The notes: generated from the letters alone by a model not told the origin. DNA of 44,648 bases from a virus (IMGVR_UViG_3300008107_000158:1-44648); one strand, 5' to 3'; shown: positions 633 through 33,741, counted from the first letter of the stretch. Made by a program: numbers and translations.

Positions 633-661
633 ATTCTATCATGATTGGAGTAGATTGTCAA
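633..661 (-). promoter_or_regulatory. Early sigma70-type promoter for the SWIM gene
   Basis: TTGACA (656-661), 17-bp spacer, TAGAAT (633-638). It lies inside the last codons of the dNMP kinase gene and points at the SWIM-domain gene. Confidence 0.85.
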
Positions 662-1238
662 TGGTCTGGTTCAGCTCTTCGATTGTGCCATCGTTAAAGA
701 TTAGGGAGTCGAACTGCTCGTTGTTCCACGCCTGTTCAGACTCATGGATCGACGGATCATATTTGCCAAACCACTCAGGAAGATTGCCGCGCTGGACGTG
801 CCAAATCTTTCCGCCATTACGACGAATCATTGCGATCTCATTAGGGAAGCGCACGTCGCTGATAACGAAGTGTGGCTTCTGACCAGTCATCTCAAAGAAG
901 TAGTTGGTAGTATCAAGCATACGCTTTTCAGTAGCATGCGCCCAGATATGAGAATCTAGATTATCACGCATGACTTCCGTCCCAAAGAACTGAAGCATCT
1001 TGCGCGGCGAAACTTCCCAGCCAAGTCGATCGCTCCACCACTCGTCCTTCAGTTCGCGATCAGCACGAGACTCAGCCGTTTCACCTTCGAGCATCTCGCG
1101 ATCCCAACCAAAGATACATGCAGCTGCGTCCTTCAGCGTTTCAGCAAACGAAATGCCAATAAAGCTGTGCTCTCGCATGAGATGCTCAGCCACAGTTCCC
1201 TTGCCTGAACCGATTAAACCACATAGACCAATAATCAC
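639..1238 (-). CDS. 1: Deoxynucleoside monophosphate kinase (T4 gp1-like)
   Basis: Phosphorylates dNMPs to dNDPs for phage DNA synthesis, in the cytoplasm. The 199-residue protein opens with a Walker A P-loop (GLIGSGKGT, residues 7-15). It then carries SFAETLKDAA and the segment SPRKMLQFFGTEVMRD, typical of T4 gp1-type kinases. Unlike T4 gp1, no hydroxymethyl-specific residue can be judged from sequence alone. The start is a GTG (1238) with GGAGGA 6 bases upstream, and its GTGA overlaps the stop of the upstream gene. In phages with modified bases this enzyme often handles the modified nucleotide, but here modification probably happens on DNA (see the TET/JBP gene). Confidence 0.88.
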   Translation of the reverse strand: MIIGLCGLIGSGKGTVAEHLMREHSFIGISFAETLKDAAACIFGWDREMLEGETAESRADRELKDEWWSDRLGWEVSPRKMLQFFGTEVMRDNLDSHIWAHATEKRMLDTTNYFFEMTGQKPHFVISDVRFPNEIAMIRRNGGKIWHVQRGNLPEWFGKYDPSIHESEQAWNNEQFDSLIFNDGTIEELNQTIDNLLQS

Positions 1239-4368: not shown

Positions 4369-5151
4369 TTAGAAAAATGATTCCAGAGTGCTGCCAACTT
4401 CTTTTCTTGTATCGCGAAGTCTTAATTCAGCGTGCCCTGTAGTTTCACGGATGTACATCGTGCAGAGACCAGGATAGCGATCTGCAAGAATCTTAGCCGA
4501 TTCGTGGATGCGCTCGTTCGTGCGCGTGACTTGCATTCCACCGTCTTCGGTGTAATACTTCGACTTGACCGTGATATCGTCGAGACGAACAACCTTTCCG
4601 TCTTTGACGTAGTGCTGAAGCGTGCGCTCGAAGTCTTCCTTATCGTCGAGCGTAACAGTCAGATCATTATCATGACGAGTGATGAGACCCCAGCACGAGC
4701 CGATGCAGTAATACAATCCGACAGCCACACGATTCTTCATGAACATGGCATTCGCAGCAGCGTAGACGCCAAACAGATTAGCTCCATGCTTCTGACACTC
4801 GACGAACCCGCGACAGATAACTTCGTACTCTAGGTTCTCTACGGGAACCATAGTCTTGTCGTCGATTTTCTTAAGAACTTCAGACAAGTCGTCGTCGAAG
4901 TTCATGACCTGCGTTCCCTCAGGATAGTAGTTCTGAATGAATCGACGGATAGCACCCATACCGACTACACCAACGACGATCTTATACTTCTCAGGAATCT
5001 CTTTACGGTATGATTCGTATTCTTCGTCACCGTTAGCTACGAAGATAGTGATTTTTTCTGCGGGGATGTTATGGCGCTCGAGCAGAGCAAGAGTTTTTTC
5101 ACGCAGCGTCTTTGCGCGACGATAACTCGGGATAGCAACAACGTAGTCCAT
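4369..5151 (-). CDS. Glycosyltransferase, TET-associated (TAGT) type
   Basis: Likely transfers a sugar to an oxidised pyrimidine in phage DNA. The 260-residue protein begins with a GT-A-like strand and IPSYRR (about residues 7-12), followed by an FVANGDEE segment. It has a triple-aspartate motif (NFDDDL, D86-88) expected to bind metal and nucleotide sugar. This layout matches the TET-associated glycosyltransferase family described from phages carrying TET/JBP oxygenases, and such an oxygenase lies three genes upstream. The second ATG (5151) is used; it overlaps the upstream stop as TGATG and has GGAG 5 bases away. A surface-glycan role is the alternative. Confidence 0.72.
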   Translation of the reverse strand: MDYVVAIPSYRRAKTLREKTLALLERHNIPAEKITIFVANGDEEYESYRKEIPEKYKIVVGVVGMGAIRRFIQNYYPEGTQVMNFDDDLSEVLKKIDDKTMVPVENLEYEVICRGFVECQKHGANLFGVYAAANAMFMKNRVAVGLYYCIGSCWGLITRHDNDLTVTLDDKEDFERTLQHYVKDGKVVRLDDITVKSKYYTEDGGMQVTRTNERIHESAKILADRYPGLCTMYIRETTGHAELRLRDTRKEVGSTLESFF

Positions 5152-5930
5152 CATTTCTCCATGTAGTCAAAGACTGTAGGTTTATTTAGATTCTTCCAGC
5201 GCATCTTCTTAGTGACTCCAGTTCCCACTTCCGCGTCTCGCAGAAAGTCGACACCTATCCTTGCAGAGTATTTTTCGCTGATATAGTTTAACGCAGCCTC
5301 TTGACGTTCTTTATCTCGCTGCCCTTTGAATCCGCCGGCTTGCTCTTTACGATTCTTTTCACTTTCCATATGGAAGTAAATCATGCGGTCATTGATTCTT
5401 ACGATGCCACCATACTTCGAGTGATGAGCTATAGTATACTCCAAATCTTCTAGCATTGTCAATGACTCATCGAAGCGGATGTCGCTTTTCTTGTGAGCCA
5501 AGAGTTGACCAAGGACCATTCCCGTGTTCGTCTGTCCAGATCCACACCACGCTGGATTTAGATTAGACTGGAATCCAGCCATATAATATGGGGACTTGAT
5601 TAGGCGATCGCTCATGTCGTTGATGAAATTGGCTAGGCTCGCATCTTCAGTGATGAACTTCGTGCCCTCCTGGCGAACAGTAACACACTTCACGAAGTCG
5701 TCATCCATAGTGATCACGATCTGATCTTTGGCGAATCCTGTATCCAAAGCATAGTTTAGCTGCTTAGGCTTCATTGGCATAACGCCATCAACACCAATGA
5801 CGTTCTGCGCTTGACTGTAGTCCGAGACTTGACTAAGCGGAACAATCCATAGGGGAACTATAGGAACGAGAGCCTGTTCCATTCTTTCAATATGCGACGA
5901 GCGATTAGCTGACTGGATTGTTACCAGCAT
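5151..5930 (-). CDS. Second TAGT-like glycosyltransferase
   Basis: 259 residues, with the same general plan as the gene downstream: an N-terminal GT-A-type nucleotide-binding region and MDDDF (D76-78) after a beta strand. It is a divergent paralogue rather than a duplicate. The ATG at 5930 (GGAAG upstream) overlaps the epimerase gene by 26 bases; the longer frame to 5966 lacks a ribosome site. Two adjacent transferases could add two sugars in sequence, or recognise different acceptors. Assignment rests on motif and neighbourhood. Confidence 0.65.
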   Translation of the reverse strand: MLVTIQSANRSSHIERMEQALVPIVPLWIVPLSQVSDYSQAQNVIGVDGVMPMKPKQLNYALDTGFAKDQIVITMDDDFVKCVTVRQEGTKFITEDASLANFINDMSDRLIKSPYYMAGFQSNLNPAWCGSGQTNTGMVLGQLLAHKKSDIRFDESLTMLEDLEYTIAHHSKYGGIVRINDRMIYFHMESEKNRKEQAGGFKGQRDKERQEAALNYISEKYSARIGVDFLRDAEVGTGVTKKMRWKNLNKPTVFDYMEK

Positions 5931-6861
5931 TTTCCCACTTCCAAGAATCAATAATAATACGTTCAATATCTTTTTTAGGCTTCCAGCCCAGAATCATTTC
6001 AACCTTTTCGGCATTAGCAACAAGAACTGCTGGATCTCCCATTCGACGACTATCATACTCGAATTTGATCTGCTTGTCAAGAACTCTTTCGGTCGTCGTG
6101 ATCAGATCAAGCATAGACGTGCCATTGCCAGTACCGAGATTGAGAACTTCACTGCATCTGTGATTCTCGAGATACTGTAGAGCCTGTACATGCGCGCGAG
6201 CGACATCAGTAACATGAAGATAGTCGCGAACACAAGTTCCGTCTTTAGTGGGATAGTCATTACCAAACACGCGGAATGGCTTATCTTCCAGAACAGCTTT
6301 CAGCAGAATCGGAACAGCGTGAGTTGGTTTCTTAGCATTGTAGCCGTGATTCTTACCAGCGCCAGCTACGTTGAAATATCGTAGCGAAACACTGTTGATA
6401 CCGTGTGCGTGGAACATTGAATTGAGCATCTGCTCTGCCCACAGCTTAGTCTGTCCGTAAGGATTGTGTGGAGTAGTCTCGTGATTTTCTGAGATAGCTG
6501 TGCTCGATGATTCGTATACTGCTGCGCTGCTACTGAACACGATCTTTGTATCGTTATCCTTCGCGTAGTCGAGAAGGCGTAGCATAGAACATAGATTGTT
6601 CTGATAGTATTTCATCGGATCAGCAACGCTTTCAGGAACAACATGACTTGCAGCCATGTGAATGATAGCGTCGAACTTCTTGTAGTATGAATGAAGCCCG
6701 AAACGATTTACATCAAAGTTGAGTATCTCGACATCGAGCTTCTTAGTCCAGTCATTGATTACACGGTCAAGAACCGTAACCGTGTAACCGTAGTAGAGAA
6801 GTTCATCGACAACAGCACTGCCGATGAACCCACTTCCTCCAGTCACTAAAATATGTTTCAT
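5905..6861 (-). CDS. galE: UDP-glucose 4-epimerase-like SDR
   Basis: Interconverts UDP-glucose and UDP-galactose (or the related N-acetyl sugars). The 318-residue extended SDR has the NAD-binding GGSGFIG (8-14), the SSSAAVY strand carrying the catalytic serine (about 111) and Y135xxxK139 (PYGQTK). Length is close to bacterial GalE (about 338). Its start overlaps the dioxygenase stop as ATGA. Flanked by two DNA-type glycosyltransferases and a TET/JBP oxygenase, it most likely supplies the sugar donor for base glycosylation. Substrate specificity cannot be read from sequence. Confidence 0.85.
   Translation of the reverse strand: MKHILVTGGSGFIGSAVVDELLYYGYTVTVLDRVINDWTKKLDVEILNFDVNRFGLHSYYKKFDAIIHMAASHVVPESVADPMKYYQNNLCSMLRLLDYAKDNDTKIVFSSSAAVYESSSTAISENHETTPHNPYGQTKLWAEQMLNSMFHAHGINSVSLRYFNVAGAGKNHGYNAKKPTHAVPILLKAVLEDKPFRVFGNDYPTKDGTCVRDYLHVTDVARAHVQALQYLENHRCSEVLNLGTGNGTSMLDLITTTERVLDKQIKFEYDSRRMGDPAVLVANAEKVEMILGWKPKKDIERIIIDSWKWENAGNNPVS
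6052..6080 (-). promoter_or_regulatory. Possible intragenic promoter in the epimerase gene
   Basis: TTGACA (6075-6080), 17 bp, TATGAT (6052-6057), inside the epimerase coding sequence. It matches the spacing of the intergenic early promoters, but the -10 also encodes a Tyr-Asp pair. It could give extra expression of the two glycosyltransferases downstream. Confidence 0.4.
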
Positions 6862-8267
6862 GCAAAGAAATCTTCAAGAGAGTTTTGATTGTTACCCTTA
6901 CCGAGTTTATTTAGGACTTCTTCAGCTTCATCGGTAAGACCATTGTTTCCGAGATAGTTAGCCCACTCTTCAGTATCCCACATAGCTGGTGATACACCAT
7001 TCCAATTCTCTTGCCAGAGTGGATGTTCTTTGTTGTTCTTGCGCATGTACACGAAGTTCTTGCGAGCTTCCTCGTACTTCTTCGATCCGCACTCGAGCAT
7101 CGACTCGCGGAAATACATGACGACTGACATACGCTCGAATCCCTCTTCGTAGTCGAACGCTGGACTGTTGCTGTGAATGCGATGCGCATTCATCATGATA
7201 AGGTCGCCAGCGCGAATGTCAGCAGCTACGCGGAACTCAGGGAAGCAGAGATAGAAGCCGTTATAGTTCTTGCCATTATCGAGCACGAGCAGATTACTGA
7301 AGCCACGCGGATTCTCATGTGACTCCCACGACTCACACAGATCACCAACGTCACGATGCGCAGCTGTACGGAAGTCGCGATTGATAGTCAGCGTTGTGTA
7401 AGGAGTATTACCGATCTGCCAGTCTGGTCCGAGCTGCTTCATCGCTTCCATCTGACCAGCGAAACGAACTGGAAGATTTTCTTGGAAAACGTTTGAAGCA
7501 GACTCGAACAGAGGAAGCGCAGCTTCATAGAGATCGTGATGACTTGCGCTCCATCCTGTCTCACGGCAGAAAGGAATTCGAGGATAGCGATCCATGAATC
7601 CACCGACGCCAGAGCGAACGCCATTAGCATAAGTCGTATCTGAGATCATGTCATTGAGAATGTGATCAGCAGCCATCTTACGATCGTGCGGAGACTTATC
7701 TTTGTTTGCGTTATACCAGTCGTCGAACACAAAGTCTTTTGCTTTGTTCACGATCCAGATAGCACCAGCACCGATCTCACCTTTGCTCTTGTCTGCACCA
7801 GACCCGCGACCCTGAAGAGGCTTATCAAGAGAAGTGTTATAGAGTTCCTGAAGCATATCCTCGCCAGTGATAGAAAGCGGCGATCCCTTAACCATATACT
7901 GAATGACAGCTTTCTCGCGCTGCGTAACCCAACGACGAGAGCCTTCGCCGTCAGGTAGTTTCTGATAAGCTGTGTCGCGTTCGATACCAGCAGCCAGCCC
8001 GCGATTATCTGACATGATAGCACCAGAGCGCAGCGCTTTATAAGCAGACTCAGTCATCTCTTTGCTGAACACATTCTTGCGGAACTTGCATAGCAGATTC
8101 TTTTCGCTATGTGTTTCTCCGTTCGCAATCTGAAGCGGAGTCAGTGGCTCATACACATCTGTATCTTCTGTCAACACAAGATCATAGCAGTCATGATCTA
8201 GGAACTTTCCTAGCAGATGATCCATCTTGTTAAGATTGGAGTGTTCTAGATAGATTTTCTTAACCAT
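6858..8267 (-). CDS. TET/JBP-family 2-oxoglutarate Fe(II) dioxygenase
   Basis: Predicted to hydroxylate the 5-methyl group of a pyrimidine in DNA (5mC or T), using Fe(II), 2-oxoglutarate and O2. The 469-residue protein has the core in its C-terminal half: TLTINRDFRTAAHRD with the HxD metal pair H304/D306, a LLVLDNG strand, FPEFRVAADIRAGD and NAHRIHSNSP carrying the distal histidine (H362 or H365). ERMSVVMYFRE with R379 probably binds 2-oxoglutarate. Order and spacing match JBP/TET enzymes. The N-terminal 250 residues are family-specific and unassigned. AGGAGGAG precedes the ATG. It is the upstream member of an overlapping run with galE and two TAGT-like transferases. Confidence 0.82.
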   Translation of the reverse strand: MVKKIYLEHSNLNKMDHLLGKFLDHDCYDLVLTEDTDVYEPLTPLQIANGETHSEKNLLCKFRKNVFSKEMTESAYKALRSGAIMSDNRGLAAGIERDTAYQKLPDGEGSRRWVTQREKAVIQYMVKGSPLSITGEDMLQELYNTSLDKPLQGRGSGADKSKGEIGAGAIWIVNKAKDFVFDDWYNANKDKSPHDRKMAADHILNDMISDTTYANGVRSGVGGFMDRYPRIPFCRETGWSASHHDLYEAALPLFESASNVFQENLPVRFAGQMEAMKQLGPDWQIGNTPYTTLTINRDFRTAAHRDVGDLCESWESHENPRGFSNLLVLDNGKNYNGFYLCFPEFRVAADIRAGDLIMMNAHRIHSNSPAFDYEEGFERMSVVMYFRESMLECGSKKYEEARKNFVYMRKNNKEHPLWQENWNGVSPAMWDTEEWANYLGNNGLTDEAEEVLNKLGKGNNQNSLEDFFA

Positions 8268-8287
8268 GGGTTCTCCTCCTAAAACTC

Positions 8288-8872
8288 TTATGTGTATGTA
8301 TGCTTCAGGAGATTTTCATATGTGTTGAAATAGACGTTTTCGCCGATAATCCTAGTCACATTATCGATACTCGGAAAGATAAAGATGAAGTCAACGTCAG
8401 GATTCTTGCGTACCAACCATTGAAGATAGTTCACACGACCAGGATTGTCTCCCGCGCTCGCGCGAGTGCTCTCTCCATAGTTTTCAGTTCCTTCATATAC
8501 ATTCGACAGAAGCTGACTACCATCTTGAATGAGGAAGTCGAATCCCAGACAGATGAGCTGATTGTATTCCATCTTGATCGCTTCGCGCATGGCGTTCATG
8601 CCAGCATTACTGCGTGGACGACCGATGTTACACTCAGAAGGTTCCCATCGTTCATCAATTGGCGGAACGAGGAAACGCTTGGATGGAAAGTCGCTTCCTT
8701 CTATCTCGGTAATGATACCATCATCAATGCTAACGAGGAAATCAGGAAAAGACCTGTCAGGATAATCACGATAAAGCGCATTGCAACCAAACACCGTTCC
8801 ATACTGTTTCAGACGAGTAAGTTCAAAGCCTTTGCGGCTCGTACCATTACCAACGATAAAAGCTGTGTTCAT
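8288..8872 (-). CDS. MptE/DUF115-like Rossmann-type protein
   Basis: 194 residues starting MNTAFIVGNGTSRKGFE. The GNGTSR turn after a first beta strand, then a GCNALYRDY segment, resemble MptE-like/DUF115 proteins, a fold found in nucleotide-linked pyrophosphokinases and some sugar transferases. Function in phages is not established. Its start overlaps the upstream stop as ATGA. Position next to the TET/JBP gene suggests a part in the same modification pathway, by context only. Confidence 0.65.
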   Translation of the reverse strand: MNTAFIVGNGTSRKGFELTRLKQYGTVFGCNALYRDYPDRSFPDFLVSIDDGIITEIEGSDFPSKRFLVPPIDERWEPSECNIGRPRSNAGMNAMREAIKMEYNQLICLGFDFLIQDGSQLLSNVYEGTENYGESTRASAGDNPGRVNYLQWLVRKNPDVDFIFIFPSIDNVTRIIGENVYFNTYENLLKHTYT

Positions 8873-12859: not shown

Positions 12860-12888
12860 ATCATACCACAGGTGAGGGTGATTGTCAA
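12860..12888 (-). promoter_or_regulatory. Early promoter
   Basis: TTGACA (12883-12888), 17 bp, TATGAT (12860-12865). The -35 overlaps the glycosyltransferase stop. Confidence 0.88.
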
Positions 12889-13886
12889 GGCTTGTTTGCC
12901 ATCGAGCTGAGGAAATCCCGCCACTGGGCTGCACGAATATCCCAATTATAGAAGTTGTCGAAGTAGGCTTTTTGGAACCTGAGGCGTTCCTGATTGTGCT
13001 CTGCCCAGTAGTCCCTGATGACCATGCTCAAGACGCCAGCGAACATATTGGCGTGCTTGTTATTGTTCTCCGTCCAACCATACTGAACAGCGAAGTTGGC
13101 GCAAGTTTCAGGCAACGCAGCCAACGTTGGGCAGATAACATTACAGCCAGCACTCATAGCCTCGATCACTGAGATACCAGAAGTCTCTGGCCAAATGCTA
13201 GGATATGCGTAGATATGCGCTTTCTTCAGAGCTTCACGGATAACAGAGTTTGGTTGCCATCCATGATAGGTCATCTTGCCGTTGCGCTTGATGCGCTCGA
13301 ACAGTTCCTTATACGGCTCGTCGCGAGCAGGCCATCCATAGATACCAAACGACGAGTAAACGTCGAGATGGAAGTCTACGCCACGATCAGCCAGGAACTC
13401 AGCAACAGGAACGAGAAGCTCGAGTCCGCGATGAGGTGTGGTGTGATAGATTACGTTAATCGTGCCTTTAGGCTTTTCATGCTGCTCGATAGGAACGATA
13501 GCATTCTGCAGAACGATACCCTTGTCGTATGGTACTCCAAGTCCGAGATTGTAAGTAGACTGCTGATAGTGTGATACGAATACGAGTCTCTCGAATCTGT
13601 CAAGGCTCTTAGCATCCTTCAAGTGCTGCGACTCTGGATCGTCGAACGTATCGTGAAGCCACAGAATGTTTTTCTTTGTAGTGCTTACATTGTCTTCGCG
13701 CACGCGCGAGCAGATGATATTGAACTGATCAGTCAGTTCTGTAGGCAGTCGAGCCATAAGCCCTTCGAACATCTGCTCGGTTCCGCCTTTAGAACCAATG
13801 TGCGCATACGTTCCGTTCTTTGCTGGCTCAAGATCCTTAGCCTTCGTTGCGCTTTCCTTGAGTCCAGAGATATTCAGTTTAGTCAT
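12885..13886 (-). CDS. GT-B glycosyltransferase (GT4-like)
   Basis: 333 residues with a two-lobed GT-B organisation. The N-lobe contains GSKGGTEQMFEGL and ILWLHDTFDD. The C-lobe carries YHTTPHRGLELL and the EX7E-type donor-site motif (PETSGISVIEAMSAG), diagnostic of the GT4 family. It probably uses an NDP-sugar. It sits about 4 kb from the TET/JBP island, so the acceptor could be modified DNA or a surface glycan. It overlaps the upstream gene by 8 bases. Confidence 0.82.
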   Translation of the reverse strand: MTKLNISGLKESATKAKDLEPAKNGTYAHIGSKGGTEQMFEGLMARLPTELTDQFNIICSRVREDNVSTTKKNILWLHDTFDDPESQHLKDAKSLDRFERLVFVSHYQQSTYNLGLGVPYDKGIVLQNAIVPIEQHEKPKGTINVIYHTTPHRGLELLVPVAEFLADRGVDFHLDVYSSFGIYGWPARDEPYKELFERIKRNGKMTYHGWQPNSVIREALKKAHIYAYPSIWPETSGISVIEAMSAGCNVICPTLAALPETCANFAVQYGWTENNNKHANMFAGVLSMVIRDYWAEHNQERLRFQKAYFDNFYNWDIRAAQWRDFLSSMANKP

Positions 13887-16041: not shown

Positions 16042-16115
16042 TGGCACCGCTGGTAGGAGTCGAACCCACGCTCTCGGTTTTGGAGACCGATGTGCTACCG
16101 TAACACTTCAGCGAT
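16042..16115 (-). tRNA. tRNA-Trp(CCA)
   Basis: Cloverleaf with ATCGCTG/CAGCGGT acceptor, anticodon loop CTCCAAA, encoded CCA. Confidence 0.92.
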
Positions 16116-16121
16116 ATGTTA

Positions 16122-16129
16122 CTATTTAG
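16122..16129 (-). promoter_or_regulatory. Late-promoter-like CTAAATAG
   Basis: CTAAATAG between two tRNA genes resembles the T4 late consensus TATAAATA and the same octamer near 18385 and 34119. Confidence 0.35.
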
Positions 16130-16131
16130 TA

Positions 16132-16221
16132 TGGCGGAGAGTATAGGATTCGAACCTATGCTACCGATAAAGGTAGGACGATTTAGCAAACCGCTGCTTT
16201 AGACCACTCAGCCAACTCTCC
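16132..16221 (-). tRNA. tRNA-Ser(GCT)
   Basis: Class II tRNA with long variable arm, anticodon loop TTGCTAA, encoded CCA. Confidence 0.92.
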
Positions 16222-16225
16222 ATAA

Positions 16226-16301
16226 TGGTGCTTCGGGATGGAATCGAACCACCGACACCAAGATCTTCAATCTCGTGCTCTACCAACTGAGCTACCGAAG
16301 C
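16226..16301 (-). tRNA. tRNA-Phe(GAA)
   Basis: GCTTCGG/CCGAAGC acceptor, loop TTGAAGA, encoded CCA. Confidence 0.95.
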
Positions 16302-16322
16302 AAAATTTAATCTGGTAAAATA

Positions 16323-16413
16323 TGGTAGGAAGGGAGGGATTCGAACCCCCAGTGTTACCTTTAAGGAACGGATTTACAGTCCGTCGCAGAACCACCGTCT
16401 CTGCAGCCTTCCT
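16323..16413 (-). tRNA. tRNA-Tyr(GTA)
   Basis: AGGAAGG/CCTTCCT acceptor, loop CTGTAAA, long variable arm, encoded CCA. Confidence 0.93.
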
Positions 16414-16422
16414 ATAACTATA

Positions 16423-16498
16423 TGGCACTGTCTTTAGGAGTCGAACCTAAACTCCGAGCTCCACAAACTCGGGTGCTTACCAATTACACTAAGACAGC
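16423..16498 (-). tRNA. tRNA-His(GTG)
   Basis: GCTGTCT/AGACAGT acceptor, loop TTGTGGA, encoded CCA. Confidence 0.92.
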
Positions 16499-16501
16499 AA
16501 G

Positions 16502-16571
16502 TGCTACAGCTCCGATTCGAACGGCGTCCTAGTCTTGTCGATCTGTGTTTCCCAACAACACCGACTGTAGC
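16502..16571 (-). tRNA. Degenerate tRNA-like gene
   Basis: GCTACAG/CTGTAGC acceptor and a TTCGAAT T-loop are intact. However, the 18 bases where the anticodon arm should be form no stem and CCA is replaced by CTT. The D-arm position reads GTGTT-GTTGGGA-AACAC, which also has the form of a Pro(TGG) anticodon arm. Either a decayed tRNA or a tRNA lacking a D-arm. Confidence 0.5.
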
Positions 16572-16575
16572 ATAT

Positions 16576-16651
16576 TGGTGTCAGAAGTAGGACTTGAACC
16601 TACGACCATTCGCGTATGAAGCGAACGCTCTACCAACTGAGCTATTCTGAC
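16576..16651 (-). tRNA. tRNA-Met(CAT)
   Basis: GTCAGAA/TTCTGAC acceptor, loop TTCATAC, encoded CCA. Position 1-72 is paired, so it is not an initiator. Ile2 (lysidine-modified CAT) is an alternative identity. Confidence 0.88.
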
Positions 16652-16656
16652 AAAAC

Positions 16657-16733
16657 TGGTGCCCTATGTAAGATTCGAACTTACAACCTTCGGTTTCTAA
16701 GACCGACACCTCTACCAGTTGGGCTAATAGGGC
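16657..16733 (-). tRNA. tRNA with anticodon TAG (Leu by codon), short variable arm
   Basis: GCCCTAT/ATAGGGC acceptor, loop CTTAGAA, encoded CCA. The anticodon reads CUA/CUG leucine codons, but the variable loop is only about 5 bases, unlike ordinary bacterial tRNA-Leu, so the charged amino acid is uncertain. Confidence 0.8.
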
Positions 16734-16737
16734 AAAT

Positions 16738-16812
16738 TGGAGCGGAGAATGGGGATCGAACCCACGACCACTTGCTTGGCAAGCAAGAGCTCTACCACTG
16801 AGCTACCTCCGC
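16738..16812 (-). tRNA. tRNA-Gly(GCC)
   Basis: GCGGAGG 5' acceptor strand, loop TTGCCAA, encoded CCA. Confidence 0.95.
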
Positions 16813-16818
16813 AGAATA

Positions 16819-16893
16819 TGGAGCTACCTCCCAGAATCGAACTGGGTTCTCAAGGATTTGCAGTCCCGCGATTTACCATCCATCCCAGGTAGC
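16819..16893 (-). tRNA. tRNA-Cys(GCA)
   Basis: GCTACCT/AGGTAGC acceptor, loop CTGCAAA, encoded CCA. Confidence 0.92.
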
Positions 16894-17056
16894 ATTTGCT
16901 GGTTACTGCCATCCAGCATCTCCCTTTTCGCGGAGTAGGTTACGAGATGAGACGGATCAAGAAACCGAGACTCTTCAGGCGGCAGGAGCCTATATCCACC
17001 TAAACGCTTGATCTCGTAAAGATGGTGATTCGCAGGCTCTCATCTCTGCGAATTGA
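16894..17056 (-). ncRNA. Candidate structured RNA inside the tRNA array
   Basis: 163 bases without a tRNA or credible ORF but with strong pairing. An 8-bp hairpin lies next to tRNA-Thr (17028-17035 / 17046-17053). A 9-bp long-range stem TTACGAGAT/ATCTCGTAA (16940-16948 / 17011-17019) continues after a bulge through a further 4 pairs. A 6-bp hairpin abuts tRNA-Cys (16897-16902 / 16913-16918). It would be excised with the tRNAs. T4 encodes two stable non-tRNA RNAs (C and D) in its tRNA cluster, so a similar stable RNA is plausible. Confidence 0.55.
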
Positions 17057-17132
17057 TGGTGCTGGCAGCAGGAATCGAACCCACGACATCCTGATTACAA
17101 ATCAGGCGCTCTACCTACTGAGCTATGCCAGC
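17057..17132 (-). tRNA. tRNA-Thr(TGT)
   Basis: GCTGGCA/TGCCAGC acceptor, loop TTTGTAA, encoded CCA. Confidence 0.94.
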
Positions 17133-17138
17133 GAAACG

Positions 17139-18335
17139 TTATACTAATTTATATCCAAAAACGTCTTCGAATTTTTCATTACGAATGGCGTCAAGAATTC
17201 GTGTATAGTTTATGAAAGAGTTTGGATCCACTGGATCTTTTTCTACAAGAGTCTTTCTGATACCTCTGTATTCTTTCTTAAGAATTTCGAAGTTATCGAC
17301 TGTAAGAATTTCTAATGCTTTGTCGATTTCATCAACAGCTTTCTTACGAGATTGCACATCCATGTTTCTAAAATGGAGTGGCTCGGGAGTAACTGTCGCG
17401 TAGCACTTCGTTCTGATACCTGGATTGATCTCATACAATTTCATTAAAAACTTCGCATGAGATGAAGCGTCGAGTAGAACATATGGACTGATAGCTGTAT
17501 TAAAGAATATTTGAAACGGATCTTTCATACCGGTAAACGTATATATGTTTTTTTCTACAGTAGACCAGATAGTTCCTTTTCTAGCGTACTCAGCTGTTTT
17601 CCCCACTCCGTCGATACTCATAACAAATCGAACTCTCTTGAACTTTTCGAGACGATCTATGAACTTAGGATTGTAGACGCTACAGTTAGTGAACAGTTCT
17701 ACGTTGATGTTTTGATTAAGATTCCTTTCAATCAGAACATCAAGGAAATCATAATAGTCTTTGATCAGTAGAGGCTCACCACCAGTTAAGCACAGAGTGC
17801 GAACACCATCCAATGTTATTTTCTTTAGTTCTTCTAAAGAAGCATCAGAGGTATACTCTACTGATTCCTCTTGATTGTCACCAAAGTATGAATTTAGAAA
17901 AGGATATTCCTTAGCTTCGCGCGCGAGCTCTGAACTAGAGGAAGAGTTACACATTCTACATTTAAAATTGCAGAGGTTACTCGTTCTAAGCTCAAGCCTC
18001 GCTATGACAGAGGGAGTATCTACTGTGAAATCTTCACTATCGAGTTCGAGATACTTATTAGGATCTATCTCATCTACTTTTCGAAAAGTGCTCTGACGAG
18101 TGCTTCTGATCCCTATGTCTTCGCGATTCTTACATATACTACATGAAGGAGGAACTCTTCCAGCAATGAAGTCTCTCTTTATGTTTTTAAGAAAGTCCGA
18201 CTCAAGGTATTCTGTTGGCGACAACTGTTCTGTACCAGAATTCGCATGGCATGGTTTCGTATTATTCAAGTGACAATACATACCATTCCACGGTGCAGGG
18301 CAAAAGAACTCTTTTGTCGGATCAATGATTGTCAT
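17139..18335 (-). CDS. Radical SAM protein (twitch/SPASM-like)
   Basis: 398 residues. The CxxxCxxC triad C122/C126/C129 (LCNFKCRMC) binds a [4Fe-4S] cluster that cleaves S-adenosylmethionine to a 5'-deoxyadenosyl radical; TGGEPLL follows. Extra cysteines precede the core (FFCPAPW, YCHLNNTKPC, CSICKN; C12, C21, C29, C65, C68) and could hold an auxiliary cluster. This N-terminal arrangement matches the twitch-domain radical SAM proteins of T4-like phages, substrate unknown. AAGG lies 6 bases before the ATG, downstream of a GGGAGC/GCTCCC hairpin leader. It is embedded in the tRNA array, so tRNA or DNA base modification is possible, by context only. Confidence 0.82.
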   Translation of the reverse strand: MTIIDPTKEFFCPAPWNGMYCHLNNTKPCHANSGTEQLSPTEYLESDFLKNIKRDFIAGRVPPSCSICKNREDIGIRSTRQSTFRKVDEIDPNKYLELDSEDFTVDTPSVIARLELRTSNLCNFKCRMCNSSSSSELAREAKEYPFLNSYFGDNQEESVEYTSDASLEELKKITLDGVRTLCLTGGEPLLIKDYYDFLDVLIERNLNQNINVELFTNCSVYNPKFIDRLEKFKRVRFVMSIDGVGKTAEYARKGTIWSTVEKNIYTFTGMKDPFQIFFNTAISPYVLLDASSHAKFLMKLYEINPGIRTKCYATVTPEPLHFRNMDVQSRKKAVDEIDKALEILTVDNFEILKKEYRGIRKTLVEKDPVDPNSFINYTRILDAIRNEKFEDVFGYKLV

Positions 18336-18357
18336 ACGAAACCTTTTTGAAATTAGT

Positions 18358-18377
18358 GGGAGCTAACCATGGCTCCC
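18358..18377 (-). promoter_or_regulatory. Leader hairpin of the radical SAM gene
   Basis: GGGAGC/GCTCCC 6-bp hairpin with 8-base loop, about 22 bases before the ATG. Confidence 0.45.
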
Positions 18378-18384
18378 GGCGGGT

Positions 18385-18392
18385 CTATTTAG
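18385..18392 (-). promoter_or_regulatory. Late-promoter-like CTAAATAG
   Basis: CTAAATAG upstream of the radical SAM gene; same octamer as at 16122 and 34119. Confidence 0.4.
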
Positions 18393-18491
18393 CGCGACCA
18401 ATCGCATCCGTATCGGCTCTCCGGTCCTTCGGGAGCGCGACTTCCCTATCTACTTTCCCAGAGCTTTCGCCCGTCGGCTAGATACGAATTA
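18393..18491 (-). ncRNA. Candidate structured RNA upstream of the radical SAM gene
   Basis: Between tRNA-Ala and the radical SAM gene. CGTATC/GATACG (18409-18414 / 18481-18486) closes a region with a GAAA-tetraloop hairpin (18461-18472) and a CTCC/GGAG hairpin (18419-18435). No ORF. Could be a leader element or a stable RNA processed from the tRNA transcript. I recognise no known riboswitch or ribozyme. Confidence 0.5.
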
Positions 18492-18567
18492 TGGTGGAGC
18501 CAGACGGGATCGAACCGCCGACATTCTGCTTGCAAAGCAGACGCTCTCCCAACTGAGCTATGGCCCC
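18492..18567 (-). tRNA. tRNA-Ala(TGC)
   Basis: Acceptor GGGGCCA/TGGCTCC, loop TTTGCAA, encoded CCA. Confidence 0.94.
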
Positions 18568-18571
18568 AAAC

Positions 18572-18646
18572 TGGTGCGGGATGAGAGGGTCGAACTCCCG
18601 ACATCCTCGGTGTAAACGAGGCGCTCTACCACTGAGCTAATCCCGC
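18572..18646 (-). tRNA. tRNA-Val(TAC)
   Basis: GCGGGAT/ATCCCGC acceptor, loop TTTACAC, encoded CCA. Confidence 0.94.
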
Positions 18647-18650
18647 AATT

Positions 18651-18726
18651 TGGCTCCCCGACTAGGACTCGAACCTAGGACAAAGCGATTAACAGTCGCT
18701 TGCTCTACCAACTGAGCTATCGGGAA
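18651..18726 (-). tRNA. tRNA-Asn(GTT)
   Basis: TTCCCGA/TCGGGGA acceptor, loop CTGTTAA, discriminator G, encoded CCA. Confidence 0.94.
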
Positions 18727-18853
18727 ATAAAAGCTCCAGAACACTATCGCAGTCTGGCAGCGGATGGTTATTTAAGTGTCTCCTTGTAACCTGCAGGAAG
18801 GAGAGAATCATTCACCATCACCCTAGTCTGTTTCAACACCAAAGGGCACGTTA
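18727..18853 (-). ncRNA. Structured spacer in the tRNA array
   Basis: 127 bases with CCAGA/TCTGG (18736-18740 / 18753-18757) and CTCCTT/AAGGAG pairing around a CCTGCAGG palindrome. A 16-codon reading frame is present but has only a weak ribosome site, so noncoding is more likely. Confidence 0.4.
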
Positions 18854-18943
18854 TGGAGGAAGAGGTGGGATTCGAACCCACGATACCCGTGAAGGTATAT
18901 CGGTTTTCAAGACCGAGGCGTTCAACCGCTCTGCCACTCTTCC
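18854..18943 (-). tRNA. tRNA-Ser(TGA)
   Basis: Class II tRNA, GGAAGAG/CTCTTCC acceptor, loop CTTGAAA, long variable arm, encoded CCA. Confidence 0.94.
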
Positions 18944-18948
18944 GTAAT

Positions 18949-19025
18949 TGGTCGGAGATGCAGGATTCGAACCTGCGACCCTCTGCTCCCAAAGCAGATG
19001 CGCTACCAGACTGCGCTAATCTCCG
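18949..19025 (-). tRNA. tRNA-Pro(TGG)
   Basis: CGGAGAT/ATCTCCG acceptor with the C1-G72 pair usual for Pro, loop TTTGGGA, encoded CCA. Confidence 0.95.
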
Positions 19026-19055
19026 TTATATGTTTTCAAACAGCAAGTTCTTTAT

Positions 19056-19373
19056 TTAGCGGCAGACTCGCTCTCTGCGAATACCATACGGAGTGTGTCT
19101 ATCTACGATGAAACACTGCGGATGACGCGGCGCATGATACACATACGGATTGTATGCAGGGCGCGGGTGATAGTATGGACGCGGCGGAGCATAGTATGGA
19201 TCGTATGGGCGCGAACGATAGTGTGTGCGATTATACGACGAGTCGGACACACCATTAGCCACGACTGCACCAGCAAGAGCACCTACTGCACCAGCGGCGA
19301 CTAACTGCTGCTCTCTTGGCGTGCAGCCAGCGAGACCAAGCGCGATGATTGATAATGCAAGAATCTTTTTCAT
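19056..19373 (-). CDS. Lipoprotein with glycine zipper and Tyr/Pro-rich tail
   Basis: 105 residues. A signal peptide ending in the lipobox LAGC predicts lipidation at the cysteine and outer-membrane anchoring. A small-residue glycine-zipper segment (AAGAVGALAGAVVANG) follows and then a tail rich in Tyr, Pro, Arg and His. ATG at 19373 with GGAG 6 bases upstream, overlapping the upstream stop as ATGA. A possible role is altering the host envelope (for example superinfection exclusion); this is a guess from location type only. Confidence 0.72.
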   Translation of the reverse strand: MKKILALSIIALGLAGCTPREQQLVAAGAVGALAGAVVANGVSDSSYNRTHYRSRPYDPYYAPPRPYYHPRPAYNPYVYHAPRHPQCFIVDRHTPYGIRRERVCR

Positions 19374-19666
19374 GCTACGCTCCATTTGATGTCGTCTTCA
19401 GTCTCGATTGATTCGAGACCATCGTACTCTTCGATTCGATATTTAGTCCCCGCAGGAAGATCGTCGATCACGAGATCGGCGCACATACCATTTGCGTCTT
19501 CACCCAGTTCCTCGACGACTTTCACAAGAATAGGATCTGTGCGATCCATATCGCCATCCCACTCAGCTTGCCCGCCTAACTCAACGTATCGTTCCCAAGC
19601 AGCCTTAGAAAGACCGAAGCCACCGTAGCAGATATTGATTACTATCTTAGTCACTTTCGTCTCCAT
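19370..19666 (-). CDS. Conserved small protein (CYGGFGLS family)
   Basis: 98 residues starting METKVTKIVINICYGGFGLSKAAW. The CYGGFGLS turn is a signature of an uncharacterised family in bacteria and phages. The ATG (19666) sits immediately after a TTGACA box and has no Shine-Dalgarno; it must be translated from upstream transcription through tRNA-Arg, or a start is missed. Acidic C-terminus. Confidence 0.7.
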   Translation of the reverse strand: METKVTKIVINICYGGFGLSKAAWERYVELGGQAEWDGDMDRTDPILVKVVEELGEDANGMCADLVIDDLPAGTKYRIEEYDGLESIETEDDIKWSVA

Positions 19667-19672
19667 TGTCAA
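19644..19672 (-). promoter_or_regulatory. Promoter-like boxes overlapping a start codon
   Basis: TTGACA (19667-19672), 17 bp, TAAGAT (19644-19649). It begins one base after tRNA-Arg ends, and its start point would lie inside the CYGGFGLS gene, so it may serve the lipoprotein gene instead. Confidence 0.4.
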
Positions 19673-19673
19673 G

Positions 19674-19750
19674 TGGTGATCGCGGAAGGACTCGAACCTT
19701 CGACCCACAGCTTAGAAGGCTGTTGCTCTATCCTGCTGAGCTACGCGACC
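19674..19750 (-). tRNA. tRNA-Arg(TCT)
   Basis: GGTCGCG/CGCGATC acceptor, loop CTTCTAA, encoded CCA. Confidence 0.94.
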
Positions 19751-19796
19751 TTTGCGTTTATATAGCTTGCGCGAGCGGATCACGCGCGAGCGAAAC

Positions 19797-20015
19797 TTAG
19801 GCGTTCGCAGGTCTTTCGCTATCGGATTGCGTTTTAACTCGCATGAGTTTACCGCAGAGTTCCCAGCCATAGTTTCGTTCCTTCGTTTTACGATTAACGT
19901 CAACATCCATCTTATAGCCGGTATAATCTTCTAGATACTTCACTGCCTTTTCGATATCATCGAACTCTTTCATACCAGCGTTGCGATTTAGATATGGCTT
20001 TGCAATATATTTCAT
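19797..20015 (-). CDS. Hypothetical protein
   Basis: 72 residues, basic, starting MKYIAKPYLNRNAGMKEFDD, probably a small alpha/beta fold. ATG overlaps the GP88 stop as ATGA, with AAGGA about 10 bases upstream. Not recognised. Confidence 0.7.
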   Translation of the reverse strand: MKYIAKPYLNRNAGMKEFDDIEKAVKYLEDYTGYKMDVDVNRKTKERNYGWELCGKLMRVKTQSDSERPANA

Positions 20016-20653
20016 GCTGCGAGTTCCTTCACGATCTTACCCATACGACGACCGTGAGCGGGATACGCAACAACAGCCACTTCCTTATTCCAGCAAGCGC
20101 GGCAGTCACCGCATTTGCCAGAGCGCTCATACGCATCGCACACCTTGCTCGCGCTCGTTTCGCTGTCAGCGAACGGGATAACCGTCGAGCCGTGATCAGC
20201 GTCGAACTCGCCAGTCATAGAGTCGGACGAGAAGCGAACAGCGACATTCTCCAGCGACTTCATACGATCGAGGATCGAGCGGATACGATCGACCTTGTAG
20301 GACTTAGTAGGCAGCCAGTGCTTGACGTGAGGAGTCTTCTGCATCACCAGAAAGATCTTGAACGCAAGCGCAGGATGATATACGTCGCCTGAGTCGAACC
20401 AGCGGAAGAACTTCTGCCGCTTCAGTTCCTTCACCATATCGTCGACCCACTCAGCTCGCTTCCAGTCCTCGCGATTGTGCTCGCGAACCTTGATCGCGTC
20501 GGGCATCATATAGAAACCCTCAGCTGCGTAGCAGCCAGCGCAAACAGCGACAGGAAGTTTCGTGGCAGGATCGATAGAACCAGGGCAAGTCTTGCGCGCT
20601 TGGAGCGACCACGATTTGGCAGGCATCTTGGAAGCCTTAGACAACTTAATCAT
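20012..20653 (-). CDS. GP88-family cysteine-cluster protein
   Basis: 213 residues. It matches the phage gene-product-88 family: KTCPGS and VCAGCYA near the N-terminus, RWFDSGDVYHPA, WLPTKSYK and a C-terminal CGDCRACW. The two cysteine groups suggest an iron-sulfur or zinc site. The enzymatic role is not established. ATG at 20653 with GGAG 6 bases upstream, expressed from the promoter at 20679-20707. Confidence 0.8.
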   Translation of the reverse strand: MIKLSKASKMPAKSWSLQARKTCPGSIDPATKLPVAVCAGCYAAEGFYMMPDAIKVREHNREDWKRAEWVDDMVKELKRQKFFRWFDSGDVYHPALAFKIFLVMQKTPHVKHWLPTKSYKVDRIRSILDRMKSLENVAVRFSSDSMTGEFDADHGSTVIPFADSETSASKVCDAYERSGKCGDCRACWNKEVAVVAYPAHGRRMGKIVKELAA

Positions 20654-20678
20654 CACGATCTCCATTCATCTTAGCTTA

Positions 20679-20707
20679 ATGATACCACGGGCAGACGTGA
20701 TTGTCAA
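20679..20707 (-). promoter_or_regulatory. Early promoter for the GP88 gene
   Basis: TTGACA (20702-20707), 17 bp, TATCAT (20679-20684). Confidence 0.85.
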
Positions 20708-20718
20708 TACCCGTGGTA
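20683..20718. promoter_or_regulatory. Inverted repeat bracketing the GP88 promoter core
   Basis: Perfect 9-bp arms TACCACGGG (20683-20691) and CCCGTGGTA (20710-20718) enclose the spacer and -35, touching the -10. Operator or terminator-promoter overlap. Confidence 0.5.
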
Positions 20719-20735
20719 CTGTTAAACTAAGCGAA

Positions 20736-21281
20736 TCACTCCGCGTAGAATTCTTTCGGAAGATTCTCGCGAACAGCAGCGCGGGCAGCATTGCGAGTCT
20801 GCTCTTCCGTTTCATAAGCGAACTCGAGGGCGCGGAACTCTTCGAGAACATCCGCTTGCTCGTCAGTCAGATCGCGTCCTGTGATCGGATGCTTAGCAAC
20901 GTTCTGCTTAGTCTTAGCATGAACAGTCTTGATCGTCTCAAGATTCTTTGCCTTGATCGCTGCCTTAGCCTCGTTGGAGATACGCGAAACGTCGACCTCC
21001 TTAACCTTGACGGACTTCGCTTTCGCTGCAATCTTAGGAGAAGCAGCCTTCGAAGCCTTGCGAGCGGGAGCAGAAGCGATCGCAGGCATTGAACCGCTGA
21101 GGACGTACGCAGTAACTGCACGACCACCGTCGCGGATAGCTTCGAGAATCACACCTTCCTTACGAGCGAGGAACAGAGCACGACGCGCACGACGCGGCGA
21201 ACCAGTAGCCTTCTCGAGCTGAACGGGAGTGAAACGATTGGAATTGGACTTGAGCAAGTCGATTACGAATTGAGATTTCAT
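20736..21281 (-). CDS. Winged-helix DNA-binding protein with Ala/Lys-rich middle
   Basis: 181 residues starting MKSQFVIDLLKSNSNRF. The first 65 residues read as a winged helix (TPVQLEKATGSPRRARRALFL as helix-turn-helix, then VILEAIRDGGRAVTAYVL as the wing). A basic Ala/Lys/Pro linker and a helical C-terminus with PITGRDLTDEQADVL follow. Likely a DNA-binding regulator or nucleoid-type protein. ATG at 21281 with GGAG 7 bases upstream, and its own promoter. Confidence 0.72.
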   Translation of the reverse strand: MKSQFVIDLLKSNSNRFTPVQLEKATGSPRRARRALFLARKEGVILEAIRDGGRAVTAYVLSGSMPAIASAPARKASKAASPKIAAKAKSVKVKEVDVSRISNEAKAAIKAKNLETIKTVHAKTKQNVAKHPITGRDLTDEQADVLEEFRALEFAYETEEQTRNAARAAVRENLPKEFYAE

Positions 21282-21309
21282 TACAGGTCTCCAAGTGGTT
21301 ACAATATTG

Positions 21310-21338
21310 ATTCTAGCTGGTGCTAGGGTTATTGTCAA
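21310..21338 (-). promoter_or_regulatory. Early promoter
   Basis: TTGACA (21333-21338), 17 bp, TAGAAT (21310-21315). The -35 overlaps the stop of the 34-residue gene upstream. Confidence 0.9.
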
Positions 21339-21439
21339 GGGCGGTTGTCAAGAAAATGGCGAATGCTGAATCCGACGAGCATGAACGTAACCAGCGCGAG
21401 GAGGGGGCTGAGAACGATAAAGCAATCGGTGGTAGACAT
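21335..21439 (-). CDS. 34-residue membrane microprotein
   Basis: A short gene: ATG at 21439 with AAGGAG 8 bases upstream and a perfect-type promoter (21474-21502). It encodes MSTTDCFIVLSPLLALV followed by TFMLVGFSIRHFLDNRP, one membrane helix with a short basic tail. Function unknown. Confidence 0.7.
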   Translation of the reverse strand: MSTTDCFIVLSPLLALVTFMLVGFSIRHFLDNRP

Positions 21440-21473
21440 AAGCTGAACTCCTTAACTCGACCTTACATATATC

Positions 21474-21502
21474 ATTCTATCGGAATAGAGGCTAATTGTC
21501 AA
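21474..21502 (-). promoter_or_regulatory. Early promoter
   Basis: TTGACA (21497-21502), 17 bp, TAGAAT (21474-21479), about 11 bp downstream of the second copy of the conserved hairpin element. Confidence 0.9.
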
Positions 21503-21512
21503 GGGTTGTTTC

Positions 21513-21590
21513 CAAAAAGAAAACCCTGCAAAAACAAGGGGTTAGTTGTAAGTGATTGTTTTTGCAGGGGAATCTTTTTTTCACTTTTTT
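21513..21590. repeat. Conserved hairpin element, copy 2 (loop inverted)
   Basis: Perfect 14-bp stem CCCTGCAAAAACAA (21524-21537) / TTGTTTTTGCAGGG (21556-21569) with flanking A/T runs. Its minus strand carries TGCAAAAACA-ATCACTTACAACTAA, matching the plus strand of copy 1 (3567-3591) at 23 of 25 positions. It lies between a gene end and a promoter, as copy 1 does. Confidence 0.78.
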
Positions 21591-21593
21591 GTA

Positions 21594-21743
21594 TCAATCT
21601 TCGATACGTTCCCAAGCTCGGACGAGTCCCTCGTAGTTGATTTCGTAGGGAAGTCCAAGCGTTTCCAGTTCTTTAATGAACGTAACCTTTTCCGTTACTG
21701 TTTCCAGCGCACGAAAATGACGAAAAATCGTTTCCAAATCCAT
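21594..21743 (-). CDS. Hypothetical protein
   Basis: 49 residues starting MDLETIFRHFRALET, helical and acidic. The ATG at 21743 has GGAG 7 bases upstream; two earlier in-frame ATGs sit at or close to the transcription start. The leader contains an ATGGATG/CATCCAT hairpin. Unrecognised. Confidence 0.65.
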   Translation of the reverse strand: MDLETIFRHFRALETVTEKVTFIKELETLGLPYEINYEGLVRAWERIED

Positions 21744-21784
21744 AGTAAAGCTCCAGTTCATGGATGAACGTCCATCCATTATTG

Positions 21785-21813
21785 ATTCTATACGAAAGTG
21801 AGTCGATTGTCAA
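21785..21813 (-). promoter_or_regulatory. Early promoter
   Basis: TTGACA (21808-21813), 17 bp, TAGAAT (21785-21790). Confidence 0.9.
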
Positions 21814-21847
21814 GTCCCTATTTCAATCGTTACGCTTCCGTTACGAT

Positions 21848-21924
21848 TGGTGCCCGCGGTCAGGGTCGAACTGACACTTGGGAGATTTTAAGTCTCCTGC
21901 CTCTGCCTATTGGGCTACGCGGGC
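21848..21924 (-). tRNA. tRNA-Leu(TAA), short variable arm
   Basis: GCCCGCG/CGCGGGC acceptor, loop CTTAAAA, encoded CCA. The variable loop is short for a leucine tRNA. Confidence 0.88.
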
Positions 21925-21954
21925 TTCAACACATGAATGAGGTGATCATGTATG

Positions 21955-22039
21955 AAAAGAAAACGACTGGACCATACGCCCACCAGAGCAACAGTCCAGT
22001 CGTTAAGAATGATAGAGCAGCAAGTATGTATGCCGCTCT
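21955..22039 (-). terminator. Tandem hairpin terminator after the outer-membrane protein gene
   Basis: First hairpin AGAGCGGCA/TGCTGCTCT (22014-22039), then a perfect 11-bp hairpin AACGACTGGAC/GTCCAGTCGTT (21962-22004) followed on the minus strand by TTTTCTTTT. Confidence 0.82.
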
Positions 22040-22044
22040 AATCA

Positions 22045-22578
22045 TCAGAACTTATAGTTCACACCGAAGGTCACACGATCATCATGCTTCGTGCGATCCC
22101 AATCTTCAACGCGACGATAACGTGCATCGATTTCGATATTGCGAGCGAATGAATACTTCACGCCGCCACCAACATTCCAAATCTTTTCGTTCTTGATATC
22201 AGCCCAACGGTAACCAACGCCAGCGAGAGCGTATGGAGCGAGTGAACCGAAAGCGACCGAACCAACAACATTACCAGCTACGTCTTGCGTGTCGCCCTTC
22301 TTGTAGTCATACGTTCCTTCGACAGCAAGACCGATTGGGCCGAGCTTGAAGAAATTGTATCCACCAGTAACACCTACATTCCACGGCGCATCTTGAATGC
22401 CGTTGATGCCGTTATTAACGAGACCACCAGCATTGATACCAACCCAAAACTTAGGGGCTGATACTGCACTGGCAGTAGGTGCGATTGGATTTGAACGGGA
22501 AGGAACGCTCGGTGCATCTGAAGCAGCAGCAGTGACTGTGCTGAGAGCGAGAGCGAACGCAACGATTGTCTTCTTCAT
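22045..22578 (-). CDS. Outer-membrane beta-barrel protein with signal peptide
   Basis: 177 residues. A Sec signal peptide (MKKTIVAFALALSTVTAAAS) and a Pro/Ser linker precede an eight-strand-like barrel: FWVGINAGGL, WNVGVTGGYNFF, GLAVEGTYDY, YALAGVGYRW, IWNVGGGVKYSF, IEIDARYRR. It ends in phenylalanine (GVNYKF), the usual outer-membrane assembly signal. AAGGAG before the ATG. Phage-encoded porin-like proteins may modify the host surface, for example to block superinfection; not shown here. Confidence 0.8.
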   Translation of the reverse strand: MKKTIVAFALALSTVTAAASDAPSVPSRSNPIAPTASAVSAPKFWVGINAGGLVNNGINGIQDAPWNVGVTGGYNFFKLGPIGLAVEGTYDYKKGDTQDVAGNVVGSVAFGSLAPYALAGVGYRWADIKNEKIWNVGGGVKYSFARNIEIDARYRRVEDWDRTKHDDRVTFGVNYKF

Positions 22579-22587
22579 ATTTACTCC

Positions 22588-22665
22588 TTAGTTGAAAACA
22601 ACATACCAAATAAGCAGGCTTATTCCTGCGATCAAAGCCATCCAATTACAGATGACTAACACCAC
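22588..22665 (-). CDS. Possible membrane microprotein after tRNA-Gly
   Basis: A hydrophobic frame (VLVICNWMALIAGISLLIW ending YVVFN) follows tRNA-Gly directly. No ATG with a ribosome site is present; a GTG at 22665 is the best start. The bilayer-like composition argues it is real, the missing start argues against. Confidence 0.35.
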   Translation of the reverse strand: MVLVICNWMALIAGISLLIWYVVFN

Positions 22666-22691
22666 GACTATTTCTAGCCAGTCGCGAATTT

Positions 22692-33723: not shown

Positions 33724-33741
33724 CTAACGACTCCGATCTTA

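Follow-up and report, generated by a model that had tools for sequence, protein, structure and literature searches.

A probable DNA hypermodification island around a TET/JBP-family oxygenase in a marine T4-like phage

Which DNA base does a marine T4-like phage modify, and with what, when a TET/JBP-family oxygenase, a sugar epimerase and two glycosyltransferases are encoded in one overlapping run? The locus lies in the IMG/VR record IMGVR_UViG_3300008107_000158, analysed over its whole length (44,648 bases, hereafter the window). The record is a fragment of the incomplete genome of a T4-superfamily phage, with a T4 gp1-like deoxynucleoside monophosphate (dNMP) kinase, a T4 RNase H-like nuclease, a phage ribonucleotide reductase and 18 tRNA genes as its T4-type content. 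In transcription order, the minus strand encodes a 194-amino acid (aa) protein, the oxygenase (TET), the epimerase GalE and the transferases GT2 and GT1; overlaps are 4 bases (TET/GalE), 26 bases (GalE/GT2) and 4 bases (GT2/GT1) (Table 1). A first-pass annotation had read this run as a DNA hypermodification island. All of the genes it named were found on the minus strand, and the island is supported by family, fold and neighbourhood evidence. On balance, with confidence only a little better than even, we propose that it adds sugar to a base of the phage's own, already replicated DNA, with TET acting on thymine, GalE, GT1 and GT2 as its partners, and enzymes held by the sliding clamp.

The oxygenase had been assigned to the TET/JBP family on the basis of H304/D306 and R379, and this assignment was confirmed with Pfam (Tet_JBP, 52.4 bits; cut-off 34.9; E = 4.6e-14) and by a match to phrog_24024 (E = 1.7e-103). 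The HxD...H metal triad (H304, D306 and H365) and the 2-oxoglutarate (2OG)-binding R379 were invariant in the alignment. PDB sequence searches with TET alone or with its profile returned chance matches only, so that a fold search was required. The AlphaFold model (mean predicted local distance difference test score 80) matched NgTET1 (Z 18.2, root-mean-square deviation 3.7, 224 residues aligned) and TET2 (Z 18.2, 3.5, 255 aligned) best, followed by CcTet (Z 16.9) and CMD1 (Z 16.4); the next nucleic-acid oxygenases were ALKBH3 (Z 12.6) and FTO. Membership of a protein-hydroxylase family, raised beforehand as a finding that would refute the island, was checked against these structures, and no protein hydroxylase was among the top matches. 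The predicted activity of TET is the oxidation of a 5-methylpyrimidine in DNA.

GalE scored above the curated equivalog cut-off of NCBIfam TIGR01179 (322.5 bits against 262.3), contained YxxxK at residues 135–139 and had UDP-glucose 4-epimerases as its top PDB matches. The earlier "GalE-type" protein is a true GalE, and the suggestion drawn from it that galactose is added stands on firmer ground as far as the supply of UDP-galactose is concerned. GT1 passed the Pfam cut-off for TET-associated glycosyltransferases (TAGT, PF20691; 46.4 bits against 27.5, E = 5.7e-12), matched phrog_842 ("beta-glucosyl-HMC-alpha-glucosyltransferase", E = 5e-15) and shared 40% identity with the mycobacteriophage Acadian TAGT. 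GT2 fell below the same cut-off (18.3 bits against 27.5) and aligned with the TAGT family in a profile comparison (hhalign 97.2%, E = 3e-11). The annotated pair of TAGT-like GT-A proteins therefore holds for GT1 by family and for GT2 as a profile relative, which we label TAGT-like only. Because relatives start there, GT2 probably begins at ATG 5930 (259 aa), replacing TTG 5966. Among marine relatives, the gene for the 194-aa protein always directly preceded TET. It had no Pfam match, matched phrog_30607, and Foldseek by itself gave no clear PDB match; its model aligned with a MAF glycosyltransferase (Z 10.6), CstII sialyltransferase (10.3), thiamin pyrophosphokinase (8.9) and the archaeal HPPK of M. 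jannaschii (7.1). In the model it looks more like a glycosyltransferase of MAF/CstII-like fold. The label "MptE-like" given to it earlier names a related fold and is probably less apt, since MAF and CstII score above HPPK.

Among marine relatives the gene order was largely constant: GT4, RNase H, MazG, the 194-aa protein, TET, a cassette, a small open reading frame (ORF) and the dNMP kinase. Retention in independent contigs argues that the gene set is not a chance association. The cassette itself was exchanged. GalE-GT2-GT1 was found in the window, L010 and L033, and GalE-GT1 in L007 and L030; in L031, L032 and most others, a HAD-like phosphatase and a TAGT accompanied a 520-aa fusion protein of nucleotidyltransferase/kinase-like type, and in L012–L015 the cassette comprised an amino-acid:DNA transferase (ADDT), a P-loop kinase and a 257-aa protein. 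Contigs L061–L066 ("freshwater-type", the habitat being a guess) had TET-GT2-GT1 without GalE. A TAGT, a phosphatase and a nucleotidyltransferase adjoined TET in phage DLP6, ADDT-like, TAGT and kinase genes lay close to it in Cr30, and in C48C1 a gene for UDP-galactopyranose mutase followed two genes behind it, with one unassigned gene between. Since differing cassettes follow the same TET, the oxygenase is taken as the hydroxyl maker; the pattern is best fitted by a conserved TET that makes a hydroxyl and by swapped cassettes, each capable of decorating such a group, that alter the final decoration. The exchange illustrates how phages vary the decoration on an unchanged handle, a point of relevance to the evasion of restriction and CRISPR. 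The combination of ADDT and P-loop kinase was also considered as proof of thymine and was dropped, because the kinase also accompanies TETs linked to C5-methyltransferases. The DLP6 TET is AAY80_030 (L002:11962-13308), labelled "SNF2 DNA repair protein"; AAY80_029 (L002:10235-11926), an "ADP-ribosyltransferase (ModA)" in the paper on that phage (PMC5349666), matches nucleotidyltransferase and APH-like families.

The first-pass annotation had left open whether thymine or cytosine is modified, having seen no cytosine methyltransferase. That absence was confirmed: no C5-methyltransferase was found in the 44.6-kb window, itself a fragment of the genome. PF00145 was likewise absent from the six complete genomes of the same TET clade (DLP6, C48C1, Cr30, S-CBWM1, HTVC112P and P12024L) and from actinophages Acadian, Indlovu, Altadena and Lilmac1015 (0 of 4). 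Each of these actinophages encodes a TET-like protein, with weak Pfam scores for the two proteins scanned. The near-complete relatives G001 and G002 encode one PF00145 protein each, a CmoX-type carboxymethyltransferase accompanied by CmoA. No dCMP hydroxymethylase of the thymidylate-synthase family (PF00303) was detected in the window, G001 or G002, and the sole exception in the search for dCMP/dUMP-hydroxymethylase-type genes was a thymidylate-synthase-family gene in Cr30. With neither phage-made 5-methylcytosine (5mC) in this TET clade nor a nucleotide-level hydroxymethylase in the window, G001 and G002, thymine is left as the one 5-methylpyrimidine that the DNA should contain. The choice therefore now leans to thymine, the simplest target given the missing 5mC-forming enzyme.

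A single residue of TET follows the same division. Eight residues past the 2OG-binding Arg (position R+8), Arg387 is found in the window and Arg throughout its clade of long-form TETs (about 435–475 aa), Asp in all TETs examined that adjoin a true (Leu-type) C5-methyltransferase, and Leu or Ile in the actinophage TETs. Three clades and two R+8 changes were distinguished in the TET tree. We take R+8 to be the position of the cytosine readers TET2 H1904 and NgTet1 H297, with which the aligned model ranges agree within a few residues. An attractive, hypothetical explanation would have Arg donate a hydrogen bond to thymine O4, and Asp accept one from cytosine N4. The PF00145 proteins of contigs L067–L107 were of two kinds, with Arg or Leu at the position that binds carboxy-S-adenosylmethionine (Cx-SAM); the Arg type occurred with CmoA and with no TET nearby, and many of the Leu type had a short TET next door.

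In the proposed mechanism, TET would act on a pyrimidine in DNA, most likely thymine, and hydroxylate its C5-methyl group, yielding 5-hydroxymethyluracil as JBP does in base J synthesis. GalE would convert UDP-glucose to UDP-galactose, GT1 would transfer the hexose to the new hydroxyl, and GT2 could be an accessory or second-sugar transferase. Polymerase-like C-terminal peptides would bind the gp45 clamp and so hold TET and GT1 at the replication fork. TET ends in SLEDFFA and GT1 in STLESFF; the C-termini of DNA polymerases from relatives are SLEDFFS in G001, TLEDFF in G002 and TLEDFFG in C48C1. The window and these three genomes together hold 582 ORFs, of which nine have a tight form of the motif at their C-terminus; the frequency in internal peptides predicts 0.27. 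Each of the nine encodes a DNA polymerase, TET, TAGT or Dam-like protein (the Dam label is a reading of the sequence). The count uses the tight form; a loose form also matched unrelated proteins such as the dNMP kinase. Related tails were seen in DLP6 (polymerase TLDSFFA, TET TLGDFFV, TAGT DLSSFFN) and, as a variant, in Cr30 (polymerase DLSSLF, TAGT DLSKLF). No such tails were found in TET and TAGT homologues from phages outside the T4 group, or in GalE, CmoX, CmoA and the 194-aa protein. In L063 a gene for the gp45 clamp follows GT1 at a distance of 1.2 kb. T4 polymerase, gp55 and gp33 bind gp45 through interchangeable hydrophobic, acidic C-termini (PMC2988020), and T4 alpha-glucosyltransferase (alpha-GT) co-purifies with gp45 (PMC13216743). 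From sequence, the TET and TAGT tails appear to be putative sliding-clamp tethers. A 294-aa Dam-type-like adenine methylase with a polymerase-like tail is encoded directly behind the DNA polymerase gene of C48C1 (L137, record 33480-34364).

The near-complete relatives carry a further set of modification genes. Peptide deformylase, CmoX and CmoA lie in this order in G001 (L045:12417-14766) and G002 (L052:16695-19064). Along its length, CmoX of G001 shares 49% identity with the carboxymethyltransferase of phage S-B43; it also has the SPPC motif and, at the position of S-B43 R350, the Arg that binds Cx-SAM. The adjoining CmoA is 47% identical to its S-B43 counterpart, and a CmoY homologue (G001:C1:68324-68785, 51% identical to S-B43) is directly behind the DNA polymerase. 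CmoX of S-B43 accepts only Cx-SAM (PMC12783734). By homology, CmoA-CmoX-CmoY is probably a second, cytosine pathway beside the TET island, with 5-glycylcarboxymethylcytosine as its predicted product. No contig with a GalE cassette reaches the CmoX/CmoY region: the window is without it, and no type-A contig extends that far (G003, 82 kb). If it resembles G001, the window phage would carry two independent pyrimidine modifications. More tentatively, the clade might modify both pyrimidines in its DNA: thymine through the Arg-type TET and a swappable sugar or amino-acid cassette, as an analogue of base J, and cytosine in GpC through CmoA-CmoX-CmoY, with TET and the glycosyltransferases on gp45 through their tails.

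Several observations weigh against a clamp-held TET that acts on thymine. The tail motif was defined after it had been sighted, so the count is supportive and not a formal test. The TETs of several type-B relatives have no tail, though their TAGT retains it, and CmoX also acts on DNA yet has none. Homologues of GT1 decorate 5-hydroxymethylcytosine (hmC) in T-even phages, to judge by the name of phrog_842. The correlation of Asp or Arg with the methyltransferase is clean but shallow, with few events (the two changes in the tree). A C5-methyltransferase could also be supplied by the host or be encoded in the portion of the window phage's genome that the record lacks. These last points lead to the classical route, in which a phage- or host-encoded C5-methyltransferase makes 5mC, TET converts it to hmC and the TAGTs glycosylate the product. 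This is the established chemistry of phage TETs, as reported in the passages of PMC11404850 and PMC12730594 that cite Burke et al. (2021); more distant TETs of T4-like Melnitz phages do adjoin a C5-methyltransferase, and the window is only a fragment. We nevertheless consider this route doubtful, because PF00145 is absent from the six complete phages with Arg-type TETs, because the only PF00145 protein of G001 and G002 is CmoX, whose homologue takes Cx-SAM only (PMC12783734), and because the R+8 signature differs (Arg against Asp).

The co-occurrence of CmoX and CmoA with this TET in both near-complete relatives suggests another cytosine route, in which TET would hydroxylate the methylene of CmoX-made 5-carboxymethylcytosine and the TAGTs would glycosylate that hydroxyl. 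This is improbable: the same type of TET is present in complete phages without CmoX, the 155-kb contig G007 has CmoX but no TET, none of the TET matches came from S-B43, and CmoX has its own downstream enzyme, CmoY. CmoX as a supplier of the TET substrate was accordingly disfavoured. Slightly less probable still is a target other than DNA bases, for example a protein, a tRNA or a polysaccharide of the surface. Glycosyltransferases that modify surfaces are indeed carried by phages, a further glycosyltransferase is encoded nearby (12885-13886) and 2OG oxygenases are versatile, but the best-matching folds are DNA-acting TETs and no protein hydroxylases, TAGTs follow TET in unrelated phages, and the likeness of the tails to those of polymerases suggests a place at the replication fork.

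To our knowledge, every phage TET with a demonstrated activity acts on 5mC. The glycosylation of thymine after TET action proposed here would resemble several known systems in part. In the phage C5-methyltransferase-TET-glycosyltransferase cytosine system (Burke et al. 2021; Melnitz phages, contigs L083–L107), TET is likewise followed by TAGT or DNA-kinase modules, but those TETs adjoin a Leu-type C5-methyltransferase and have Asp at R+8, unlike the long, Arg-type TETs without a detectable 5mC-forming enzyme described here. Base J of kinetoplastids (JBP1/JBP2 and a glucosyltransferase) is alike in the proposed logic only, thymine being oxidized in DNA and then glycosylated (PMC4111573); GalE and TAGTs are additions of the phage, in which thymine is the presumed target. 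The predicted actinophage TET/JBP-TAGT systems (Acadian, Indlovu, Altadena, Lilmac1015) also have a TAGT, 32–40% identical to GT1, after a TET-like protein and no PF00145, but differ in their ParB-like and glucosaminyl-deacetylase partners, in R+8 and in the lack of a clamp-like tail. Acadian gp2 (L162:813-1691) and Indlovu gp2 (L163:809-1687), annotated as "queuine tRNA-ribosyltransferase", align with TET/JBP proteins including the HxD, distal His and Arg; the Pfam score of Acadian gp2 is under the cut-off. T4, of the same superfamily, also glycosylates at the DNA level (gp42, alpha-GT and beta-GT), and its alpha-GT binds gp45 (PMC13216743), but no gp42-type hydroxymethylase was found in the window, G001 or G002, and the hydroxyl would instead be made on DNA by TET. 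The S-B43 system occurs in the near-complete relatives as a separate locus with separate chemistry, is found elsewhere without this TET and was not seen in the window. Similar enzymes are thus known, and a thymine target and clamp coupling are not established in phages. If correct, a TET clade working without 5mC would provide a phage route to glycosylated hydroxymethyluracil, a base type best known from kinetoplastid base J; the choice of TET enzymes between T and C would be testable at one residue; and tethering to the clamp would account for the ability of post-replicative modification to keep up with the fork.

Table 1. Coordinates of the island and its context in the window
Feature	Position	Strand	Basis
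TET/JBP-family 2OG-Fe(II) dioxygenase, long form, 469 aa	6858..8267	-	Pfam Tet_JBP, phrog_24024, model fold
GalE, UDP-glucose 4-epimerase, 318 aa	5905..6861	-	TIGR01179 equivalog, PDB matches
GT2, TAGT-like GT-A glycosyltransferase, 259 aa, DDD 76-78	5151..5930	-	hhalign against TAGT alignment
GT1, TET-associated glycosyltransferase (TAGT), 261 aa, DDD 87-89	4369..5154	-	Pfam TAGT PF20691
Putative glycosyltransferase, MAF/CstII-like fold, 194 aa	8288..8872	-	phrog_30607, model VIA, synteny
TET C-terminal peptide SLEDFFA, putative sliding-clamp (gp45) tether	6861..6881	-	tail common to relatives' DNA polymerases
GT1 C-terminal peptide STLESFF, putative sliding-clamp tether	4372..4392	-	likeness to polymerase tails
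T4 gp1-like deoxynucleoside monophosphate kinase, conserved island flank (context)	639..1238	-	Pfam DNMK 7.3e-20, synteny

The dinucleotide ratios of the window (GC 1.16, CG 1.13, TA 0.75) were not diagnostic. Upstream of the island, the gene at 12885-13886 encodes a group-1 glycosyltransferase without a clamp-like tail, which is conserved at 73–99% identity in nearly all marine relatives spanning the region. The 18 tRNA genes lie at 16042-22765, most of them in a tight minus-strand cluster.

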